A stretch of DNA of 64,000 nt from Chloroflexota bacterium. GTDB taxonomy: Bacteria > Chloroflexota > Anaerolineae > Anaerolineales > Villigracilaceae. A model generated the notes under the pieces. The model made no database searches and was not told where the DNA came from. It saw nothing but the letters and a program-made list of their open reading frames with translations. Positions 2,177 through 63,517 of this stretch are shown here, in pieces (within the stretch, counting starts at the first letter, position 1; each line of letters starts with the position of its first letter). The translations under genes were made by a program, and so were the position numbers. The stretch is taken from positions 124,001 to 188,000 of the forward strand of contig JACPVF010000005.1 in assembly GCA_016191845.1 (NCBI GenBank), in the 5' to 3' direction.

Positions 2177-4057
2177 CTATTCTTCCGACCAACCGTCGTC
2201 GCCGCGTTTGTGGCGCTTGCGGCCTACGACTTCTCCAAGCTCCTCGTCGAACTGAAGTTCGACGTTCTTGGTCTTCTTGCCCTTCTTGCCGCCCTTCTTT
2301 GCCGCGCTGTTCTCATCCTCGGGTGCTTCCGTACCGGAGAAGATCTCGGGCTTCATGCTGAAGAGATCGTCGAGCGAGACGCCGTCCTTGGCGAACTCGT
2401 CCTCGGGCTCCTCGGCGGGTTTGGTCTTGGAGGGCTTGGTTTCCTTCTTGACCTCGGCCGGCTTCTCGGCAGTGGGAGTCTCCTCCGCAACGGGCGCAGG
2501 GGCTTCGGCCGGGGCCGCTTCCACAGCGGGAGCTTCGGCCACAGGGGCAGGCTCGGGCTCGGGGAACTTGAGCGTCGCCATGACCTCTTCGATGTTCTGC
2601 ATGGCCTTGGGGCCCACGCCGGGCAGGCCCAGTACCTTATTCGAGTCGGTGTTGAAGGCCAGCAGCAGGTCGCCAACGGTCTCGAAACCCGCCTCGGTGA
2701 GGATGTTGAAGACGTGCTCCTTGAGGCCGGCCTGTTCGAGCGGCATCTGGAAGGCAGCGGTCGGGACGCTGGCGCGCGCGGCGGCGGTAGTCTCGTCCTC
2801 GACGCGGATGGCCTCTTCCTTCACCTGGCTGGTGCGACGTTCGATGCTGTCCACGAACTGACCCAGGGTGGTGTATTCCTCGGGAGTGACAGGACGATTC
2901 TCGGCCTTCTTGGCCAGGATCTCGCCCACCTGCGGGGCCACTTCAACCAGGGCCGGCAGCATGGCAGCCAGGGCGGGATCGCCGTTGAATTTGTTAAGGG
3001 CATCGCCCGCGGCCTCGGTCAGCGACTTGATGTCGATGCGCCAGCCGGTCAACTTGGCAGCCAGGCGGGCATTTTGCCCGTCGCGGCCAATGGCCAGACT
3101 GAGTTGGTCTTCCTGCACGACCACGGTGGCCGTGCGCGTGCCCTCGACTTCATTGAGGTACACGCCGGTTACGCGGGCCGGGCTGATGGCCTTGGAGATG
3201 TATACCACGGGATCCTGATCCCACTGGATAATGTCGATCTTCTCGTCGTGCAGTTCCTTGACGATGGCCTGGATGCGCACGCCCTTGATACCCACGCACG
3301 CGCCGACCGGGTCCACGCCCGCCTGGGTGGCCGAGACGGCCACTTTGGCGCGCGCACCGGGCTCGCGCGCGATGGCGCGGATTTCGACGATGCCGTGATA
3401 GATTTCAGGGACTTCGTTCTCGAGCAGGCGGCGCAGGAAATTGCGATGCGCGCGAGAGAGGATGATCTGCGGACCGCGCGAGCCGTCCTTGACCTCGAGC
3501 ACCACCGCGCGGACGCGGTCGTGCAGCTTCAGGCGCTCGCCGGGGATCTTCTGGTTGTTGGGCATCACGCCTTCAGCCTTCATGTCAAGGCCCACGGTGA
3601 TGCCCTGGTTGTTGACAGCCTGCACGACGCCCGAGACGATCTCGCCCATCTGGCGTTCGAAGTATTGCATCTGGTTGGAGCGTTCGGCTTCACGGATACG
3701 CTGCTGGATGACCTGGCGCGCCGTCTGGGCGGCCACGCGGCCGAAGTCATCGGGCGTGGTTTCCACGACGACCATGTCACCCAATTGGGCCTCGGGGTTC
3801 ACGCGGCGGGCGTCCGCCAGGGTCACCTCGGTCTTGAACTCCTGAACGTCCTCGACCACTTCTTTTTCAGCGTAGATCAGGACTTTGCCTGTTTCGGGAT
3901 CGACCTTGGCTTCCACATGTTGTGCCGTGGAGGCGTTAACTGCGCGGCGATAGGCCGAAATCATGGCGGATTCAATGGCCGCCAGGATCACGTCCTTGGA
4001 GAGTTGTTTTTCTTCCAGCACTTCGTTGAAGGCAAGGGAGAATTCGCTCTTGGTCAT
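2177..4057 (-). CDS. nusA: Transcription termination/antitermination factor NusA with extended acidic tail
   Basis: NusA binds RNA polymerase and modulates pausing, termination and antitermination. The order is canonical: NusA_N (about 1-130), S1 (about 135-200) and tandem KH domains (about 205-345; [17 protein letters not shown] is the KH2 signature). A helix-hairpin-helix-like segment follows ([18 protein letters not shown], about 500-520). The last 110 or so residues are unusual: an Ala/Pro/Glu-rich linker, then KKGGKKGKK and [14 protein letters not shown], giving 626 residues against about 345-500 for most NusA proteins. The chosen ATG (4057) begins [10 protein letters not shown], which aligns with the family start; an in-frame ATG at 4111 would add 18 unlikely residues. 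No rimP precedes it. A good sigma70-type promoter lies about 95 bases upstream. Confidence 0.95.
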
Positions 4058-50867: not shown

Positions 50868-53812
<2,945 letters not shown>

Positions 53813-53905: not shown

Positions 53906-54721
53906 ATGCAAGAGTCTTCCCGTACCCTGCCAGAAGCCAGCCGCATCGGCGTGTTGACCGCGTCCGTTCTGCTGGCCTTTTCGCTCACACGTATCCTGCC
54001 TGCCCCCGAATTTACCATGAGCCTGCAATTGCCCGGTTTTTATTTCGGTATTCCGCTGACTTTTGGCCTGGGAATGACCGTCCTGGCGGCTGGGCTGACT
54101 GCCACGGGCATGGACTGGTTGCTGCGTTCGCATCCCGGCTTGCTGGGGACTTCCACGCTGGAACATTGGTTGCTGCCCACCCTGACCACGCTGGTGGTGG
54201 GTTCCACACTGAATCTGATACCCGCTTTGAGTGTCTGGTGGTTTGGGTTTGGCGTCAGTGCTCTGCTGTTGCTGTTGGTCTTTGTGGCTGAATACGTTGT
54301 GGTTGAGATATCTGCGTCGCAGTATCCAATCGCGCGCGCAGGGTTGACGGCCTTGGCTTATGCCCTGTTCTTCATATTGGCGATCTTTCTGCGCCTGGCA
54401 GGTGCACGCCTGATCGTGATGGCGCCTGTGCTCTTCCTCAGCGCAGGGTTGATCGCCCTGCGTATCCTGCATCTCGATGGCACCGACCGTTGGGATTTCC
54501 CCTGGGCGGCGGGCATTGGGCTGGTCTGTGCGCAGATTGGCGCAGGACTGCACTATTGGCCGATTCACCCCATTCAATTGGGGTTGATCCTGACCGGCGC
54601 ACTGTATGCGCTTACCACCCTGTCTGTCAACGTGACGGATGGGATTCCCCTGCGGCGCGCTTCGCTCGGCCCGGGCATCATCCTGGCCGTGACGTGGACT
54701 GTCTCTGTCTTCTTGAGGTAA
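53906..54721 (+). CDS. Polytopic membrane protein (possibly DUF5656 family)
   Basis: The 271-residue protein has seven or eight predicted helices from residue 15 on (VLTASVLLAFSL, IPLTFGLGMTVLAAGL, VWWFGFGVSALLLLLVFV, ALAYALFFILAIFLRL, LIVMAPVLFLSAGLIAL and more) and short loops. It resembles the DUF5656 membrane family in size and layout; no function is known. TAAAAT at 53891-53896 lies nine bases before the ATG with no ribosome site, suggesting a leaderless mRNA. plsY lies downstream after 107 bases. Confidence 0.68.
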   Translation: MQESSRTLPEASRIGVLTASVLLAFSLTRILPAPEFTMSLQLPGFYFGIPLTFGLGMTVLAAGLTATGMDWLLRSHPGLLGTSTLEHWLLPTLTTLVVGSTLNLIPALSVWWFGFGVSALLLLLVFVAEYVVVEISASQYPIARAGLTALAYALFFILAIFLRLAGARLIVMAPVLFLSAGLIALRILHLDGTDRWDFPWAAGIGLVCAQIGAGLHYWPIHPIQLGLILTGALYALTTLSVNVTDGIPLRRASLGPGIILAVTWTVSVFLR

Positions 54722-55542: not shown

Positions 55543-55580
55543 AGCAAGTCCCCGCCATATGGCGGGGACTTGCTCTATTC
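55543..55580. terminator. Bidirectional terminator between plsY and the MBL-fold gene
   Basis: AGCAAGTCCCCGCC and GGCGGGGACTTGCT (55543-55574) form a perfect 14-bp stem with an ATAT loop; TTTTGGG follows on the minus strand. Confidence 0.85.
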
Positions 55581-56417
55581 TTCGTCCTCTTCATCCTGCA
55601 TTTGAGAGACTAATACCTTCAGATTGCGCTCGTGCAGGGTTTGAGCCAGACCGCCGAGGTATACGCGACTCTTACCGCATTCCTCGATGCGGACCGTCTC
55701 AAGGAACTCCTCGGGCGCTCGCCGACGAGCGGCGGTCTTGGCGGCCTTGCGGATGGCGGCCAGGTAGTTCAGGTTCTCCTTTACGGCTGCATCGATCTCG
55801 CCGCGCAGGATAATGTCGCCGTGACCTTGGATGATATTCTCCAGGCCCATGCGGCCGATCTTCTTGATGGCGGCCACGTTCTCATCGAGGTTCCCATCCA
55901 CCACGTAGGGCAGGGGCATGAAGGCGTCGCCCGCAAAGAGCACGCGATCCTCTTCCACCAGCACGCTGATGCCGTCCTCACTATGCCCCGTGGCAGGCGA
56001 AAGGATCAGGTTCTTCTTGCCCACGCGCAGGGTGAACTCACCCGAGGCAAAGGTGATGTGCGGCAGGACGATCTTCACCTGACGCAACAGGGGATTCTGG
56101 CGGCGGGCCGCCTCCAACGATGGCTTGCCGCGCGTTTCGAGCAGTTCGCGGCAGCGCGAATGCGCAATGACGGTCGCGCCGGGGAAGAAACAATTGCCCC
56201 AGGCGTGGTCCGCATGATGGTGGGTGTTGATCACATATCGGACGGGAACGCCCAATTCGTGCTCGATGAACTCCCGCATCCCCACCGTTTCTTCGGGCAG
56301 GGCCAGTGTGTCGATGACCACCGCCCACTGCGGCCCCGCCACCACTCCCGCCGTCACTTGCGCATAGACTTCACTCTGAAACCAAAACACATTTTCCGAA
56401 ACTCGTTCTCGGTGCAT
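55575..56417 (-). CDS. Metallo-beta-lactamase fold hydrolase
   Basis: The 280-residue protein shows the di-metal site of the MBL superfamily: THHHADH (about 65-71), a further His in SPATGHSEDG, the bridging Asp in LFAGDAFMPLPY and GHGDIILRG near the C-terminus. A family such as glyoxalase II-like, flavodiiron-type or cyclase/dehydrase MBL enzymes cannot be told apart from sequence alone. No signal peptide is seen. The last residues are acidic (QMQDEEDEE). Monocistronic and divergent from the receiver/roadblock gene. Confidence 0.88.
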   Translation of the reverse strand: MHRERVSENVFWFQSEVYAQVTAGVVAGPQWAVVIDTLALPEETVGMREFIEHELGVPVRYVINTHHHADHAWGNCFFPGATVIAHSRCRELLETRGKPSLEAARRQNPLLRQVKIVLPHITFASGEFTLRVGKKNLILSPATGHSEDGISVLVEEDRVLFAGDAFMPLPYVVDGNLDENVAAIKKIGRMGLENIIQGHGDIILRGEIDAAVKENLNYLAAIRKAAKTAARRRAPEEFLETVRIEECGKSRVYLGGLAQTLHERNLKVLVSQMQDEEDEE

Positions 56418-56578
56418 ACGATATCCCTGAAAGAAATTTTTCTATTGATAGCACAGGTGAAGGTTAAAAGTCAAGTTGTATGGACAAATTTGCTCTGGCG
56501 CCGACTTTCAGGCGGGATTTACCTCGATTTATTCTTATTCCCTTCCATATGTGTTTCCTTGCATTTCGGACCTCTGGC

Positions 56579-56607
56579 TTGCCTCTCCCCTTTGACCGTG
56601 ATACACT
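56579..56607 (+). promoter_or_regulatory. Promoter of the receiver-roadblock-TnpA fusion gene
   Basis: TTGCCT (56579-56584) and TACACT (56602-56607) are 17 bases apart. The start codon at 56615 is only seven bases after the -10, so the transcript is probably leaderless. Confidence 0.55.
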
Positions 56608-56614
56608 TTGTAGG

Positions 56615-58243
56615 ATGAATGGCGATTTGCTTGTCGTTACCCCTGTCCCCGCAATCGCGGACGCCATCCGCCAAAACCTGCAGGAGACGGGACCCTATCG
56701 GATTCACATCGTCAACAACAAGGCGGCGGCGGTTGTCAAAGCCGATGAATTTGCCATCGAGCTGGCCATCCTCGACCTCGACCTGGGGGAAACCTGGGTA
56801 TTGGAAATTGGCCAATCGCTGCGGACCATCACCCCGCGCATCAAGATCATCGTCCTCTGTCAGGAGCAGATCCCGCCTTCCCTTGAAGCCATTCGCCCAT
56901 GGACCTTGCTGCGTAAACCATTCTATGTCAAGGATTTACTCCATACTTTAAAGAATACCGCTGGAGAATCTGTGGACACGAACACCTCCACCATCCCGTG
57001 GCTGCAAGACGTTTCGGTTGCGGCCCAACACCTTACCCGCCTCACGCTCGAGAGTTCCGCGCAGGCCGCCCTCATTACCCGTAAGAATGACCTATGGGCC
57101 TATGCGGGCGGACTCTCGCAGAGTGCGGGCAAGGAAGTGGCCCAGACCGTCACCCGCAACTGGGATGGACAGAAGGGCAGCGACCTGCTGCGCTTCATCC
57201 GCCTGGAAAGCACGCGCGCCGAGCACATGCTCTACGCCACCCGCCTTGCCCCCGACGTGGTGCTGGCCCTGGTCTTTGACGCGGAGACTCCCTTCAGTAC
57301 CATCCGCTCCCAGGCCAATCAGCTGATTAACACCATCGGTGTCGAAAAAGGCGACAGCCGCCCCGTCCCTTCGCATCCTGCGGCTAAGGCTGCCCTGGCT
57401 GCCGAAGCGACTCAGGAGGAGGCGGAAGAAGAAGACGGCCTGGCTGTCCCGCCAATCGCCGACATCCTCAAGAGCGTGCCGCTCCCCAACCCACCCAAGT
57501 CGCTCAAAGCGGATCCCAACCTGCCTCCCACACCCGTAGATTATCCCTACTCAACCACCGCCGAGACCCGCCAGTCGACATCGCTTTCCAATGTCGGCCT
57601 GTTCAGCCGCGAGTCCTCGCCGGCTGTCCCATTGGATGGCTTGGTGATGAACAACATGTCTCTCGATGAGACCATGCCCTCGCAGGCCACGCTCAGCGAA
57701 CTGGATGTCACCGCGCCTTCCAAACCCAAGGCGCGGCCTGAGACGCCCATTGCGCGCCCAAGGCCTGGCGAGCTGGCTGAGACCCGTCCCAGCCCGACGA
57801 CCGAGGCTGCTCGTCGCATCACGATGGAACCCATCACCGCGGGCCTGTATCACCTGACGTACGCCTGCCTGCTCGTGCCGCGCTTTTCATCCCATTACCT
57901 GACCGGTGATTTGGCTGACCGTCTCGCAGAGTGGCTCCCTGCCATTTGTGTGGCCTTTGGCTGGCGGCTGGAGTATCAGGCTGTGCGGCCCGAGTATCTG
58001 CAATGGGTGGTGAACGTCCAGCCCAACACCTCGCCTGGTTACCTGATGCGTGTCATGCGCCAGCAGACCTCCGAGAAGATCTTCGGTGATTTCCCGCGCC
58101 TTAAAAAGGAAAATCCCTCGGGTGATTTCTGGGCTCCGGGCTACCTTATTATGGGCGGCACCCAGCCGCACCCGCCGCAACTGGTGCGCGATTACATCAA
58201 ACAGACGCGCGAACGCCAGGGCATTTCCACTCCGCGAAAATAG
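56615..58243 (+). CDS. Receiver-like/roadblock-like protein with a degenerate IS200-type (Y1) transposase domain
   Basis: The 542-residue protein has three parts. Residues 1-110 are receiver-like (LLVVTPVPAIADAIRQNL, LAILDLDLGETWVLEI, LLRKPFYVKDLL). Residues about 125-240 resemble a roadblock/LC7 domain (SAQAALITRKNDLWAYAGGL, LALVFDAETPF). A Pro/Ser/Thr-rich disordered stretch runs to about 400. Residues 407-536 align with IS200/IS605 TnpA: YHLTYACLLVPRF, PEYLQWVVNV where PDHVHLLV is expected, SPGYLMRVMRQQTSEKIFGD, DFWAPGYLIMGG and VRDYIKQT. The HUH His pair is replaced (Tyr461, Gln463) while the Tyr (527) remains 64 residues later, against 61 in IS608 TnpA. I start at 56615, not further upstream, because a promoter sits there. 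Confidence 0.78.
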   Translation: MNGDLLVVTPVPAIADAIRQNLQETGPYRIHIVNNKAAAVVKADEFAIELAILDLDLGETWVLEIGQSLRTITPRIKIIVLCQEQIPPSLEAIRPWTLLRKPFYVKDLLHTLKNTAGESVDTNTSTIPWLQDVSVAAQHLTRLTLESSAQAALITRKNDLWAYAGGLSQSAGKEVAQTVTRNWDGQKGSDLLRFIRLESTRAEHMLYATRLAPDVVLALVFDAETPFSTIRSQANQLINTIGVEKGDSRPVPSHPAAKAALAAEATQEEAEEEDGLAVPPIADILKSVPLPNPPKSLKADPNLPPTPVDYPYSTTAETRQSTSLSNVGLFSRESSPAVPLDGLVMNNMSLDETMPSQATLSELDVTAPSKPKARPETPIARPRPGELAETRPSPTTEAARRITMEPITAGLYHLTYACLLVPRFSSHYLTGDLADRLAEWLPAICVAFGWRLEYQAVRPEYLQWVVNVQPNTSPGYLMRVMRQQTSEKIFGDFPRLKKENPSGDFWAPGYLIMGGTQPHPPQLVRDYIKQTRERQGISTPRK

Positions 58244-58260
58244 GCCGTCGGCCTCTCTGG

Positions 58261-58300
58261 AGCGCAGAGACCGCTAGAAGCGCTCTGCGCTTTTATTTTA
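58261..58300 (+). terminator. Terminator after the fusion gene
   Basis: AGCGCAGAG (58261-58269) pairs with CTCTGCGCT (58283-58291), followed by TTTATTTTATT. Confidence 0.85.
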
Positions 58301-58318
58301 TTGGACCCACTCAAACCT

Positions 58319-61120
58319 ATGCCTCCCACACTCTATCTGATCGACGGCCACGCGCTGGCCTACCGCATGTACTTTGCCCTGACCGCTGGCGGATCGAGCC
58401 AGCGCTGGCAGACCTCCAAAGGTGAACCGACCGCGGGTATCTACGGCTTTGCGCGCGAATTGCTGCGCATCCTCGAACAGGAAAAACCCGATTACCTGGC
58501 GGTGGCCTTCGACACTGGCAAAACCTTCCGCGACGAGATCTTCCCCGAGTACAAAGGCACGCGCGCCAAGATGCCCGATGACCTGCGTCCGCAGATCGAG
58601 CGCATCCGCGAGATGGTGGATGCCTTCAACATTCCGCGTCTCGAAATGGAAGGTTACGAAGCGGATGACGTGCTCGGCTCGGTGGCGAAGATCGCCGCCG
58701 AACAGGGATTGGGCATCAAGATCATCACGGGCGACCGCGACCTGTTGCAACTGGTCAACGAGCGTACCGTGGTCTACCTGGCGGGCGATGACAAGAATTA
58801 CATCACAACCGAGGATGTGCTCAAGAGCAAGTTCGCGGTCCGCCCCGACCAGGTGGTGGACTACAAGGCGTTGGTTGGTGACACCTCCGACAATATCCCC
58901 GGCGTGCCGGGCATCGGCGAGAAGACCGCCAACAACCTGCTGGCAAAGTTCGACACGCTCGACAATATCTACGCCCACCTCGACGAAGTGGAAAACCGTT
59001 GGCGGACCAAGCTGGAAGCGGGCAAGGACTCAGCGTACATGAGCCGCGACCTGGCGACCATCCGCACCGACCTGCCGATTAAACTGGATTTGGAACAGGC
59101 CCATGCCGAACACTACGATCCAGCGGTGATCTCAGCCTTCTTTGAGCAGCTCGAATTCCGCACGTTGATCAAGACGCTCGACCGCCTTTCAGGGAAGGAA
59201 GCGCCCGCCCAAGGGACGTCCACGCCCGTGGCCTATAAAAAAGACCAGCAGATTTCGATGTTTGCGAATGAGCCGCAGGCGGTGTATGCCGCGCCGACGG
59301 CCAGCCGAATCGAGGTGCGGATCATCGACAACGCGGAAAGCCTGTCGGCGCTGGCGGCGGAATTGGCCAAGGCGGAAGTCATCGCCTTCGACACGGAGAC
59401 CACTTCCACGTCTGAGATGGAGGCGGAGATCGTCGGCATTTCACTGGCGATCCACGCGGGGCAGGGCATCTACATCCCTGTTGGACATGTCGCCGGTCCG
59501 AACCTGCCGCTGGCGGATGTGATCGAGGCGCTGCGCGGCCCGATGACGAATCCGAAGATCGGCAAGGTGGCGCACAACGCCAAGTATGATTACATCGTGC
59601 TGGCGCGGCACGGCCTGGCTGTGACGCCCATCACCTTCGACACGATGATCGCGGAATTCGTCGTCGACCCGTCCTCGCGGCACCTGGGATTGAAGAATCT
59701 GTCCGAGGTGCGCCTGGGCGAGGAGATGACTCATATCGAGGCGCTGATCGGCACGGGCAAGAAGCAGATCAGCATGGCCGAGGTGCCCGTGGAGGCCGCC
59801 GCCGCATACGCCGCCGCTGACGCCGAAACGACCCTGCGCCTGATGCCAATCCTGCAAAAGGAACTGGCCCGCGTGGACGGCTTGAAAATCATGGACGAGA
59901 TCGAGATGCCGCTGATCTCGGTGCTGGCCGAGATGGAGATGAGCGGCGTGCTGCTCGACCTGCCCTTCTTCGCCGGGATGGCGACCGAATTGCAGGGACG
60001 CATGGCTGGGATCGAGAAGCGCGTCTTCGAGCTGGTCGGCAAACCCTTCAATATCAATTCGACCCAGCAGCTCTCGGACGTGCTGTTCGTGCATCTGGGG
60101 TTGCTGCCGCCCGATCGTGGGCGGAAAACCGCCAGCGGAAAATACTCCACCTCGGCGGACGTGCTCGAGGCCCTGCGCGGAAAACATCCCGTGGTGGACC
60201 TGGTGCTGGAACATCGCGAGCTTTCGAAGTTGAAGTCCACCTACGTGGACGCGCTGCCCGCCGCCGTCGACTCGAAGACGGGCCGCGTACACACCTCCTA
60301 CAGCCAGACGGGCGCGGTGACGGGGCGGCTTTCTTCGTCGAACCCAAACCTGCAGAACATCCCGATCCGCACCGAGGAAGGCCGTCGTGTGCGCAATGGT
60401 TTCATCGCAGCCAAGGGCAACGTGCTGCTCTCAGTGGATTACTCGCAGATCGAGTTGCGCATCGTGGCGCATATGGCGGGCGACGAAAGCATGCTGGCCG
60501 CCTTCCGCGCAGGACAGGACATTCACGCCACGACCGCCGCCGCCGTGCACGGCATCCCGCTCGAGCAGGTCACCAAGGACATGCGCCGCCACGCCAAGGC
60601 CATCAACTTCGGCCTGATCTATGGCATGTCGGCCTTCGGCCTGACCCGTTCCACCGACCTGACCCTGGCCGAGGCCGAGGACTTCGTCAAGGCGTACTTC
60701 CGCCAGTTCCCCGGTGTGAAGAAATATCTGGACGGAATCCGCGACCTGGCGGCAAAGCAGGGCTACGTCGAGACCCTGCTCGGGCGGCGGCGTTACTTCC
60801 CCGCCTTGCAGGGCAGCCTCAACGTCCAGTTAAAGAATCGCGAAGAGCGCGAGGCCATCAACGCCCCCATCCAGGGCACGGCGGCGGACATTATGAAGAT
60901 CGCCATGCTGAAGATTCCCGACGCGCTGGCGAAGGCCAAACTCCGCGGACGGATGCTCCTGCAGGTGCACGATGAGCTCGTGCTGGAATGCCCCAAAGAG
61001 GAGATCGAGCAGACCGCCCGTGTGGTGCAGGAGACCATGTCTTCGGCGTACCCGCTCAGCATCCCGCTCTCGACCGAGGCGCGCTATGGCGCCCGCTGGG
61101 GTGAGATGACGGTACTGTAA
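58319..61120 (+). CDS. polA: DNA polymerase I with 5'-nuclease and intact proofreading domain
   Basis: The 933-residue protein has the full Pol I layout. The 5'-nuclease domain (1-300: LYLIDGHALAYRMYF, GYEADDVLGSVA, GDRDLLQL, GDTSDNIPGVPGIGEKTA) is followed by a DEDD 3'-5' exonuclease (about 340-520) whose acidic residues appear intact (FDTETTS, HNAKYDYIV, AAADAETTLRL). The polymerase domain has DYSQIELRIVAHMAGD (motif A), AKAINFGLIYGMSAFG (motif B) and QVHDELVLE (motif C). It replaces RNA primers and fills gaps. The ATG at 58319 fits the family start; a TTG six codons upstream is discounted. Confidence 0.96.
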   Translation: MPPTLYLIDGHALAYRMYFALTAGGSSQRWQTSKGEPTAGIYGFARELLRILEQEKPDYLAVAFDTGKTFRDEIFPEYKGTRAKMPDDLRPQIERIREMVDAFNIPRLEMEGYEADDVLGSVAKIAAEQGLGIKIITGDRDLLQLVNERTVVYLAGDDKNYITTEDVLKSKFAVRPDQVVDYKALVGDTSDNIPGVPGIGEKTANNLLAKFDTLDNIYAHLDEVENRWRTKLEAGKDSAYMSRDLATIRTDLPIKLDLEQAHAEHYDPAVISAFFEQLEFRTLIKTLDRLSGKEAPAQGTSTPVAYKKDQQISMFANEPQAVYAAPTASRIEVRIIDNAESLSALAAELAKAEVIAFDTETTSTSEMEAEIVGISLAIHAGQGIYIPVGHVAGPNLPLADVIEALRGPMTNPKIGKVAHNAKYDYIVLARHGLAVTPITFDTMIAEFVVDPSSRHLGLKNLSEVRLGEEMTHIEALIGTGKKQISMAEVPVEAAAAYAAADAETTLRLMPILQKELARVDGLKIMDEIEMPLISVLAEMEMSGVLLDLPFFAGMATELQGRMAGIEKRVFELVGKPFNINSTQQLSDVLFVHLGLLPPDRGRKTASGKYSTSADVLEALRGKHPVVDLVLEHRELSKLKSTYVDALPAAVDSKTGRVHTSYSQTGAVTGRLSSSNPNLQNIPIRTEEGRRVRNGFIAAKGNVLLSVDYSQIELRIVAHMAGDESMLAAFRAGQDIHATTAAAVHGIPLEQVTKDMRRHAKAINFGLIYGMSAFGLTRSTDLTLAEAEDFVKAYFRQFPGVKKYLDGIRDLAAKQGYVETLLGRRRYFPALQGSLNVQLKNREEREAINAPIQGTAADIMKIAMLKIPDALAKAKLRGRMLLQVHDELVLECPKEEIEQTARVVQETMSSAYPLSIPLSTEARYGARWGEMTVL

Positions 61121-61201: not shown

Positions 61202-63517
61202 ATGCCTGGACGAGAAGACGTTTTTCAGAAAGCCATGAATGAGGGCCACTCGGCCGCCTGGGACCAGGAGTGGGACAAGGCCATTAGCTCCTACCGCAAG
61301 GCGTTGGAGGAATTCCCCGACCAGCCCAAGGCGCTCAACAGCCTGGGGCTGGCACTCTATCAGGTGGGGCAGTTCGAAGAGGCGCTGCAGACATATCAAT
61401 ACGTTGCCAGGCTCTCGCCCAACGACCCCGTTCCGTTCGAGAAGGTGGCCCAACTCTCCGAGCGCCTCGGCGACCTGCGGATGGCCGTCGAGGCGGCCAT
61501 GCGTGCCGCCGACCTGTTCCTCAGTCAGCGCGACGTGGACAAGGCCCTCGAAAACTGGGTGCGTGTCACCACGCTCAATCCTGAGCAGGCCGCCGCGCAT
61601 TCGCGCCTGGCGCTCGTCCACGAAAAATTGGGTCATACCCAGCAGGCCGTCACTGAATACCTGGCCATTGCCAGCATCTTTCAACGCGCGGGCAATGCCG
61701 AGAAGACGCAGGAGATGGTGGATAAGGCCCTGCAACTAATGCCCGCCAACCCCGAGGCGCGCCAGGCGCAGACCCTGCTCAAGACGGGACAGTTGCTCCC
61801 CAAGCCGGTGCGGACCAAGGGCGGCACGGGACCCATCCGCATGGCACAGGTCAAGCAGTTGCAGAAACCCAAACAGGCGGAATCAGGCCTGGACCCGATC
61901 GCGGAGGCGCGCCAAAAGGCGTTGTCTCAGCTGGCAGAGATCCTCTTCGAATACTCGGACGAGAGTCCCGCCGCCTCGCAGGAGCGCCGCGGACTGGCTG
62001 CCATCATGCGCGGCACGGGGCAGCTTTCGATGCAGAGCGCCGAGCAGACCAAGGTGGTGTTGCATCTTGGCCAGGCCATCGACGCCCTTTCCCGCAACCA
62101 GGACGCGCAAGCCGCCGAAGAGTTGGACCGCGCCCTCGAAGCAGGATTCAGCCATCCGTCGTTGTACTTCGTGCTGGGCCTGTTACGCTCCAGGGGCGAC
62201 CGTCTCGAAAGTGCCCAGCGCCATCTTCAGCACGCCGTCAAACATAATGATTACAACCTGGCGGCCCGCCTATTGCAGGGACAGATTTTCAGCCGCAAAG
62301 GTCAGACCAAGGAAGCTTCACTCGAATATCTGGAGGCGCTGCGCCTGGCCGATGCGATGGTGGTCCCTGCCGACCAGGCCGACGAGGTCCGCCAGTTATA
62401 CGAGCCGCTGATCGAGACCCAGCAGAACCAGACCGACGAGGAAGCCTGCCGCCGTTTGTGTGATAACGTCAACGGGCTGTTGGCCCGCTCCGACTGGCGC
62501 GACCAGTTGCACAAGTCGCGCGAGCAGATGCCCAAGCAGGAGGGCGGTCTCATGCCCATCGCCGAGGTGTTGATGCAGGCCCAGTCGAGCCAGGTGCTTG
62601 AGTCGATCAACCGCGTGCATCAAATGGCCCGCATGGGATTCCTGCGGCCCGCCATGGCCGAGGCATTCGACGCCGTCCAGCACGCGCCGACCTATCTGCC
62701 GCTCCACACCCTGATCGGTGATTTGTTGATCCAGGAGGGACGTCCGCAGGATGCCATCGTCAAGTTCAGCGTGGTGGCACATGCCTACGGCGTGCGCGGC
62801 GAGGTGGCCCAGGCCACCAAACTGCTGCGACGCGTCATCCAGCTCGCGCCGATGGACCTCTCCGCCCGAACGCGTCTCATCGACCAACTCGTGGCGCGCG
62901 GCATGGTGGACGACGCCATCAACGAATATCTCGAACTGGCCGACATCCACTATCGTTTGGCCGAACTGGACCTGGCCCGCAAGACCTACACCACCGCCCT
63001 GCGCGTGGTCCAGCAGTCGAACGCCGACCGCGCCTGGAATGTTCACATCCTGCAGCGCATGGCCGACATCGACATGCAGCGCCTGAACTGGAAACAGGCC
63101 CTGCGCGTCTTCGAACAGATCCGCACTCTGCGCCCCGATGACGCCAACATCCGCAAGAACCTGGTGGATCTCAACCTGCGCATGGGCCAGGATCAGCAGG
63201 CCATGACCGAGTTGGAAGGCTACATCACCTACCTCGAAAGCAAACACCAGACCGAGCCCATGCTCAAATTCCTCGAGGAGTTGGTGGCGGAGCACGACGA
63301 CCAGCCCTTGCTGCGACGCGCCTGGGCCGAGCAACTCCACCGCGCGGGCCGCACCGACGAGGCCGTCGCGCAACTGGACCTTCTCGGTGAGACCTTCCTC
63401 GGCGTGGGCAAGAAGCGCGAAGCCATGGAAGTCATCCAGAAGATCATTCTGATGAACCCCGCCAATGTGGAAGACTACCGCGCGCTGCTGGAACAGGTCA
63501 GACAGGGAAACGCATAA
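61202..63517 (+). CDS. Large tetratricopeptide-repeat protein
   Basis: The 771-residue protein is almost all TPR-like helix pairs: AISSYRKALEEFPDQPKALN and GLALYQVGQFEEALQTYQYV at the start, LDRALEAGFSHPSLYFVLG in the middle, DAINEYLELADIHYRLAELD and LRVFEQIRTLRPDDANI near the end. A basic linker (about 195-230, TKGGTGPIRMAQVKQ) separates N- and C-terminal repeat blocks. No signal peptide is present, so it is probably a cytoplasmic scaffold; partners are unknown. It follows polA but has its own promoter. Composition matches the genome. Confidence 0.85.
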   Translation: MPGREDVFQKAMNEGHSAAWDQEWDKAISSYRKALEEFPDQPKALNSLGLALYQVGQFEEALQTYQYVARLSPNDPVPFEKVAQLSERLGDLRMAVEAAMRAADLFLSQRDVDKALENWVRVTTLNPEQAAAHSRLALVHEKLGHTQQAVTEYLAIASIFQRAGNAEKTQEMVDKALQLMPANPEARQAQTLLKTGQLLPKPVRTKGGTGPIRMAQVKQLQKPKQAESGLDPIAEARQKALSQLAEILFEYSDESPAASQERRGLAAIMRGTGQLSMQSAEQTKVVLHLGQAIDALSRNQDAQAAEELDRALEAGFSHPSLYFVLGLLRSRGDRLESAQRHLQHAVKHNDYNLAARLLQGQIFSRKGQTKEASLEYLEALRLADAMVVPADQADEVRQLYEPLIETQQNQTDEEACRRLCDNVNGLLARSDWRDQLHKSREQMPKQEGGLMPIAEVLMQAQSSQVLESINRVHQMARMGFLRPAMAEAFDAVQHAPTYLPLHTLIGDLLIQEGRPQDAIVKFSVVAHAYGVRGEVAQATKLLRRVIQLAPMDLSARTRLIDQLVARGMVDDAINEYLELADIHYRLAELDLARKTYTTALRVVQQSNADRAWNVHILQRMADIDMQRLNWKQALRVFEQIRTLRPDDANIRKNLVDLNLRMGQDQQAMTELEGYITYLESKHQTEPMLKFLEELVAEHDDQPLLRRAWAEQLHRAGRTDEAVAQLDLLGETFLGVGKKREAMEVIQKIILMNPANVEDYRALLEQVRQGNA

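Follow-up and report, generated by a model that had tools for sequence, protein, structure and literature searches.

A TnpA domain with altered metal-ligand positions in a receiver-roadblock protein of Anaerolineae

The window, by which we mean the whole stretch of 64,000 nucleotides that was analysed, encodes a protein in which a receiver region, a roadblock region and a linker are followed by a genuine IS200/IS605 TnpA domain (residues 405-536). This domain is the most constrained segment of the protein and is under purifying selection. On balance we favour the view that it represents an ancient domestication, in which the dead TnpA fold would act as a non-catalytic dimerisation or docking module of a receiver-roadblock adaptor. 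The features of the gene and its surroundings are collected in Table 1.

Table 1. Positions in the window of the gene, its parts, the associated signals and the neighbouring genes.
Feature	Position	Strand	Basis and remarks
Metallo-beta-lactamase-fold hydrolase, divergent, upstream	55575..56417	-	Pfam PF00753
Receiver-roadblock-linker-pseudoTnpA gene	56615..58243	+	Reading frame, 542 aa, stop included in coordinates
Receiver (CheY-like) domain	56615..56962	+	Residues 1-116; Pfam 24.6 bits, VIA Z 17.8 to 4h60, alignment
Roadblock/MglB-like domain	56996..57349	+	Residues 128-245; Foldseek 6h5b
Linker	57350..57799	+	Residues 246-395; rich in Pro, Ser, Ala, Glu; short conserved motifs
Pseudo-TnpA (IS200/IS605 Y1 transposase fold)	57827..58222	+	Residues 405-536; PF01797, AlphaFold pLDDT 84, VIA Z 16.4/16.2
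Y461-L462-Q463 in place of the HUH motif	57995..58003	+	62/62 sequences; alignment to 2ec2
Y527, catalytic tyrosine position (Y127 of IS608)	58193..58195	+	62/62 close set; Phe in 22/32 diverse members
Weak terminator-like hairpin in the gap between gene and polA	58275..58295	+	9 pairs, 4 G-C; near chance level
polA, DNA polymerase I	58301..61120	+	Pfam; frame start TTG 58301, ATG 58319 likelier by eye
TPR-repeat protein, downstream of polA	61202..63517	+	Pfam; present in 46/65 close loci

The reading frame, coordinates and residue numbers given in an earlier reading made from the letters of the DNA (here called the sequence-only reading) proved correct on re-checking. A single scan of genome contigs yielded 65 loci, 61 of which were long enough to be aligned with the query (62 sequences); the frame-broken L058 and the partial L062, L064 and L065 were left out of this alignment. 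We take the 65 close loci to come from Chloroflexota or from taxa belonging to Chloroflexota, one of them being a Herpetosiphon of another class. The start methionine of the query faces a methionine in 60 of the 62 sequences, so that a longer frame from the in-frame ATG at 56480 is unlikely. The equivalent of residues 250-394 varies between 110 and 166 residues across the 62 sequences, and the composition of the linker suggests that in the query protein it is disordered.

The C-terminal domain was identified both by sequence profiles and by its predicted fold. The Pfam family PF01797 (Y1_Tnp) matches residues 412-530 with an E-value of 1e-11 and 45.5 bits (cut-off 23), the NCBIfam model transpos_IS200 reaches 52.6 bits, slightly below its cut-off of 55, and the sequences of six solved TnpAs match the query with E-values of 3.3e-8 to 2.5e-6. 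AlphaFold models of residues 396-542 and of residues 1-246 were built separately from the 62 aligned sequences. For the former the best of five models had a pLDDT of 84.2 and the other four 50.7-63.5; for the latter the pLDDT was 83.3. Comparison of the C-terminal model with known structures by VIA placed TnpA structures at the top (Z 14.1-16.4), including 2ec2 (Z 16.4, 2.5 A over 110 residues) and 2fyx (Z 16.2, 2.8 A over 126 residues), followed by a REP-associated transposase at Z 8.4 and the remaining structures at 7.7 or less. The TnpA pattern that the sequence-only reading had seen in the last 130 or so residues is therefore upheld by both profile and structure, the latter being a check that it had named beforehand. 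Ferredoxin-like folds are common, and unrelated ones reach Z 6-8 in the same list of structures, which might suggest that the likeness to TnpA is convergent and that the domain is an unrelated ferredoxin-like one. We find this scarcely credible in view of the E-values for PF01797 and for the best-matching TnpA chain (3.3e-8), and of the distance in Z between the TnpA structures and the rest of the list. Of nine other members of the family, seven also score above the threshold of PF01797 (L156 66.4 bits, L098 48.8, L102 43.5, L164 38.9, L173 31.3, L176 28.9 and L168 26.0; L103 with 18.4 and L169 with 17.1 fall below it), and the Trp of the LWxxGY-type motif is invariant in a 17-row alignment.

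The two regions in front of this domain, which had likewise been described as receiver-like and roadblock-like, were also confirmed, the former by its fold and the latter by a structural match to MglB. The receiver region falls below the Pfam cut-off of 30.2 bits, but its model matches 4h60 over 115 residues at 1.9 A. D54 and K101, which we take to be the phospho-acceptor aspartate and the active-site lysine of a receiver, are invariant (62/62). The acidic, Mg-binding pair of receivers is absent, its place being taken by T9-P10, with T9 conserved in 60 of the 62; certain distant members, L156 and L157 among them, carry one or more acids at these positions. The roadblock profile PF03259 gave nothing at E <= 10 on the corresponding region of the query, for which reason the domain is termed roadblock-like; of the profile searches that had been proposed, that with PF01797 was thus positive and that with PF03259 negative. 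As the receiver filled the VIA list of the N-terminal model, the roadblock call rests on Foldseek, by which the region matches MglB (6h5b) with an E-value of 1.7e-6, a probability of 1.00 and a TM-score of 0.67 by target. In two genomes of the query's own family (f1; f1, f2, f8 and so on are family labels in the class survey), G055 and G120, the receiver match is absent and the roadblock and TnpA parts are kept, so that these two parts look like the core of the protein.

In the TnpA of IS608 the metal ligands are H64, H66, D61 and Q131, Tyr127 acts in trans and the dimer has a swapped last helix (PMC5934647, available part). In the alignment of the query with 2ec2 the HUH histidines lie opposite Y461 and Q463, and the positions of H64, H66, D61 and Q131 of IS608 correspond to Y461, Q463, R458 and T531, D61 and Q131 having been placed by offset; some TnpAs, 2ec2 for one, have not conserved D61. 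A glutamine ligand four residues past the tyrosine is described as a rule for TnpAs in the portions available of PMC5934647 and PMC6006769. With regard to the active TnpA set, the HUH pair and this glutamine are both absent from the query and the catalytic tyrosine is present. Since all four metal-ligand positions have changed, metal-dependent chemistry, cleavage included, should be lost. None of the 62 close sequences deviates at Y461, Q463, W464, R458 or Y527, and the T531 column holds Thr in 57, Ile in four and Val in one. This is in agreement with the earlier claims that the HUH histidines are replaced, with loss of nicking to be expected, and that Tyr527 is at the right distance, where it faces Y127 of IS608; a survey of homologues for Y527 and for the lost HUH pair, named beforehand as a check, found both to be uniform in the close set. 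That the former active site does not vary was also considered as proof of a new pocket; this argument was dropped, as in the close set 51 of the 147 columns of the TnpA part show no variation.

Across a more diverse set of 32 TnpA domains (the query included; L165, L172, L239 and the short paralogues L098-L100 not included) none has both histidines together with the tyrosine. The tyrosine column holds Phe in 22, Tyr in six and Leu or Met in four; both HUH histidines are kept in a single domain, L340, and one of them in ten others; and the Tyr+4 column is Gln in six domains, each with Phe at the tyrosine position, although in the most diverged rows these columns are alignment-dependent. The scatter of residues across the class looks as if an active ancestor had lost its catalytic residues one by one. 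L340 (f8, genome G550; frame 2501-3769, minus strand) is a fused member beside polA that keeps HVH and has Leu at the tyrosine position; its HVH is possibly a relic of the active ancestor. These data also bear on whether the domain retains some Y527-based chemistry, with another metal site or with none. The invariance of Y527, Y461, Q463 and R458 in the close set and the HVH of L340 could be cited for such chemistry. We nevertheless hold it to be very improbable, because the close set is changed at all four metal-ligand positions, 26 of the 32 diverse members have Phe, Leu or Met instead of the tyrosine, L340 itself has Leu, and one of the three short paralogues (L100) has Phe.

The constraint on the separate segments was estimated from 41 homologue pairs of 80-97% identity, of which 39-41 were usable per segment. 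The median dN/dS was lowest in the TnpA domain (0.026), followed by the roadblock (0.034), the receiver (0.091) and the linker (0.143), and mean column identity was 87% in the TnpA part compared with 68% in residues 1-246. The name that the profile gives to the domain, a transposase, could point to a recent insertion-sequence fusion or a remnant of one in the query genome. This is refuted by the homologues, to the extent that we give it practically no weight: the full-length fusion is found at 61 other loci, polA lies downstream of the gene in 59 of 65, the genome holds one copy of this type of domain, and its dN/dS is low. The sole other PF01797 match in the query genome (C14:437179-437520, minus strand; L101:4961-5557, minus strand) encodes 198 residues in which an HYH motif is intact and CRYIHGNP is present; from these motifs we presume the protein to be of the REP-associated (RAYT-like) type. 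The sequence-only reading had argued against a recent insertion partly on the ground that the gene has its own promoter and terminator. The conclusion is borne out by homologues and synteny; this ground is not, as the gene itself contains the single sigma-70-like site of 56300-58450 and the hairpin before polA was found in a search that returned four terminator-like sites with 1.9 expected by chance. It is the synteny that supplies the argument which the promoter and terminator fail to give.

With regard to this synteny, in three of the six close loci without polA (L035, L039 and L064) the sequence stops inside the gene or no more than 0.5 kb from it, and L047 has 1.4 kb; no polA match was found downstream in L037 (3 kb) or L065 (6 kb). 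As measured with a rough pattern at 57 of the 62 loci, gene and polA are separated by 20-551 bases at 55 loci and by 1.1-1.3 kb at the other two. The upstream hydrolase is less well conserved than polA: only 25 of the 65 close loci gave a match, and this to the overlapping opposite frame. Between gyrB and plsY the window holds a DUF5656 protein (53906-54721, plus strand) and a membrane-protein look-alike without a Pfam match at E <= 1e-4 (52826-53812, minus strand).

Outside f1 the frames of the gene and polA are 4-128 bases apart in f2 (L102, L103), f12 (L164-L168, L331-L335, L345) and f119 (L173, L341); the contig of a further f12 member, L336, is without polA. In f8, polA adjoins L340; its distance is 0.4 kb for L338 and 1.6 kb for L337, and it was not seen near L169, L170 or L339. 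The f129 member (L330) has polA at 2.9 kb, one gene away. The members of f108, f117, f126 and f127 that were analysed are located elsewhere and the polA neighbourhood is absent. The link to polA is therefore strong in some families and absent in others. The fused member L156 (genome G327) does not have polA as its neighbour; judged by eye, the genes around it are presumably those of a Tad/type II secretion system (CpaF, TadB, TadC) and ComF. Roadblock proteins lacking the TnpA domain are also found directly before polA, namely L157 of f3 (receiver and roadblock), a roadblock-only gene in three f8 genomes and a receiver-roadblock gene in f10, and for this reason the link to polA may belong to the roadblock part. 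When polA was taken as the starting point (the analysis covered 90 of the 117 class genomes with a polA match, the known positives G343 and G369 being left out), a roadblock gene was found upstream in 12 of the 90 class loci, two of the 12 being weak partial matches (L222, L256), and in none of 20 loci outside the class; seven of the 90 and one of the 20 have less than 800 bases upstream. A TnpA domain is present in six of the 12 (five from f1, one from f12).

The distribution of the protein was surveyed with a profile built from 17 diverse TnpA domains, which gave some match in 178 of 396 class genomes, ordinary transposases included. Among the matches listed, frames of at least 370 residues occur in all 25 of the f1 genomes. 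Counted by eye they occur in at least 80 genomes of at least ten families, seven of the rows holding a stop inside the matched stretch, with at least two of ten f2 genomes, at least 23 in f12, 20 in f8, four in f117 and two in f119, and at least one each in f108, f126, f127 and f129. Receiver, roadblock and TnpA matches are found together in 27 of 30 fused members outside f1, some of the receiver scores being weak (down to 12 bits); of the other three, L338 is without a receiver match, L172 has the receiver in a separate frame and the sequence of L239 ends before it. In G541 (L171, L172) the fused gene is present twice with nearly repeated flanks, one copy having the receiver and the rest in separate frames. 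In 301 genomes of the phylum outside the class the roadblock profile gave only three weak matches, and the three TnpA matches with the longest frames (G228, G251, G032) are of the ordinary TnpA type without a roadblock or receiver match. The 31 pattern matches in viral contigs included no relatives.

Stand-alone pseudo-TnpA frames of 144-231 residues, without a receiver or roadblock match, were also observed (L342, L343 and L344 of G645, and L098-L100). Such paralogues occur in f1, being present in three of 18 genomes (L098-L100) and in G645, which has four of them besides its fused gene, two of these being adjacent. L098-L100 all have Tyr at the H64 position and Gln at that of H66, and two of them keep the tyrosine; Phe is found at the tyrosine position in three of the seven stand-alone paralogues. 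A role as hetero-dimer partners or decoys would suit these proteins. In a tree confined to Chloroflexota, 22 TnpA domains of the family separate from eight TnpAs with a split support of 100/99, which fits one origin within the sampled tree. In a tree of the roadblock domain the TnpA-containing proteins do not form one clade (three changes) and the long branches are unsafe, so that the order of gain and loss of TnpA is not derivable from that tree.

The proposal that we favour is that an IS200/IS605 TnpA was captured long ago, once in the sampled tree, by a receiver-roadblock protein of the Anaerolineae and was kept as a pseudo-enzyme. The receiver would serve as a degenerate input; the roadblock domain would dimerise and may bind an MglA-like GTPase; and the TnpA fold would provide a second, non-catalytic surface for dimerisation or docking at the end of the flexible linker. 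The whole protein would then be an adaptor whose role is connected with DNA polymerase I. A docking module is suggested by the swapped-helix dimer of IS608 TnpA taken together with the Tyr-to-Phe pattern, which fits a packing role, and with the acidic cores described below. A putative partner is available in the query genome: the small GTPase encoded at C3:110883-111353 (L180:1441-1980, minus strand), which matches PF00025, the Arf profile, with 30.1 bits, can be read as MglA-like. The genome also has two other roadblock genes. The GTPase gene lies about 13 kb before the window, beside genes for proteins of 268 and 206 residues, and what appears by eye to be a look-alike of the 206-residue neighbour adjoins a stand-alone roadblock gene in L177.

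The surface charge of the domain provides a means of weighing docking against the binding of nucleic acid. The pI of the core, computed on the equivalent of residues 412-530, is 6.3-9.4 in the 62 close sequences with a mean of 8.2 (mildly basic). It is 4.1-7.0 in all 18 domains of f12, f117, f119, f126, f127 and f129, 4.8-8.6 in six domains of f8, 5.8 and 6.7 in f2, and 7.0 in f108; in ordinary TnpAs it is 9.2-10.5 in seven of eight and 7.0 in the eighth. Slices that include some of the acidic linker gave 4.4-5.7 for f12, f119, f126 and f127, the core-only values being milder (4.1-7.0 in f12). As acidic TnpA domains of the same architecture occur in many families, the binding of hairpins becomes less likely as a shared function, and the function that is shared should need no basic surface. 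The sequence-only reading had proposed recruitment into a signalling protein for the binding of DNA or RNA hairpins or for dimerisation. The recruitment stands, in that a TnpA fold is present in a receiver-roadblock protein; hairpin binding is weakened by the acidic domains of these six families and is a less probable reading in f1.

The main rival to docking, in f1, is accordingly that the pseudo-TnpA still binds structured single-stranded DNA or RNA, such as hairpins of the lagging-strand template or of messages, without cutting it, and that the receiver and roadblock report this state. This would be consistent with the mildly basic f1 cores and with the presence of R423 and R482 in 62/62 sequences and of K488 in 58/62 (Arg in the other four), at positions that are mostly Lys or Arg in the TnpAs compared, as well as with the neighbouring DNA polymerase I and with the action of TnpA relatives on structured single-stranded DNA (PMC6006769, in the part available). 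However, the homologues of f12 and f119 are acidic despite having kept the polA neighbourhood, and the KYRR-type motif of ordinary TnpAs reads RFSS in the query family. We therefore regard nucleic-acid binding as a serious but distinctly less probable reading for f1; in f8, where the core pI extends to both sides of neutrality, it is possible. A more speculative suggestion, which we put forward tentatively and hold to be rather unlikely, is that a non-catalytic TnpA output domain, recruited once and long ago and kept beside polA by many families of the class, may sense or scaffold replication-linked single-stranded DNA or complexes of DNA polymerase I and report through a roadblock/GTPase switch.

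Domesticated transposases are well known in eukaryotes. For prokaryotes, TnpA-REP (RAYT) has been called the first domesticated transposase (PMC8266576, available part), and it resembles the present protein in being a Y1 transposase kept by its host. HuH and Y are both retained in TnpA-REP proteins, several subclasses of which accompany REP repeats (PMC6006769, in the text available), whereas in the query family the catalytic set is gone and receiver and roadblock domains are present. With the TnpAs of IS200/IS605 elements (IS608, ISDra2; PF01797) the query shares the fold, the length of the core, the order of the motifs and, in f1, the place of the tyrosine; it differs in the changed HUH and other metal-ligand positions, in its fusion to signalling domains and in being a fixed chromosomal gene with a single copy of the domain type in the genome. 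Fusions of Response_reg and Robl_LC7 were already known (PMC4316618, available part) and have the same order of a receiver followed by an MglB-like roadblock; the query adds the linker and the pseudo-TnpA, and a transposase domain is unmentioned in the available part of PMC4316618. The MglA-MglB-RomR system of Myxococcus xanthus likewise combines roadblock and receiver proteins with a small GTPase, in polarity and motility (PMC6785124, available part). There the proteins are separate and the role is in motility; the query is one chain, often encoded beside polA, and its link to a GTPase is putative.

No description of a receiver-roadblock-TnpA protein was found in the full-text literature searched, a scope outside which most subscription journals lie, and within it PMC4316618 was the sole paper to contain two of the three names Response_reg, Y1_Tnp and Robl_LC7, Y1_Tnp being the one that was absent. 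As far as the available text of PMC6006769 describes it, the survey of the superfamily kept sequences with HuH and Y for its core analysis, set others aside as probably non-functional and dropped unexpectedly long (fused) proteins; by these filters families like the present one would have been removed. The findings point to a protein that is undescribed in the literature searched and whose gene is associated with that of DNA polymerase I in several families. In all 25 of the f1 genomes sampled a signalling protein has an enzyme-dead TnpA as its best conserved part, and the query family offers a clear test case for the use of the TnpA fold without catalysis.
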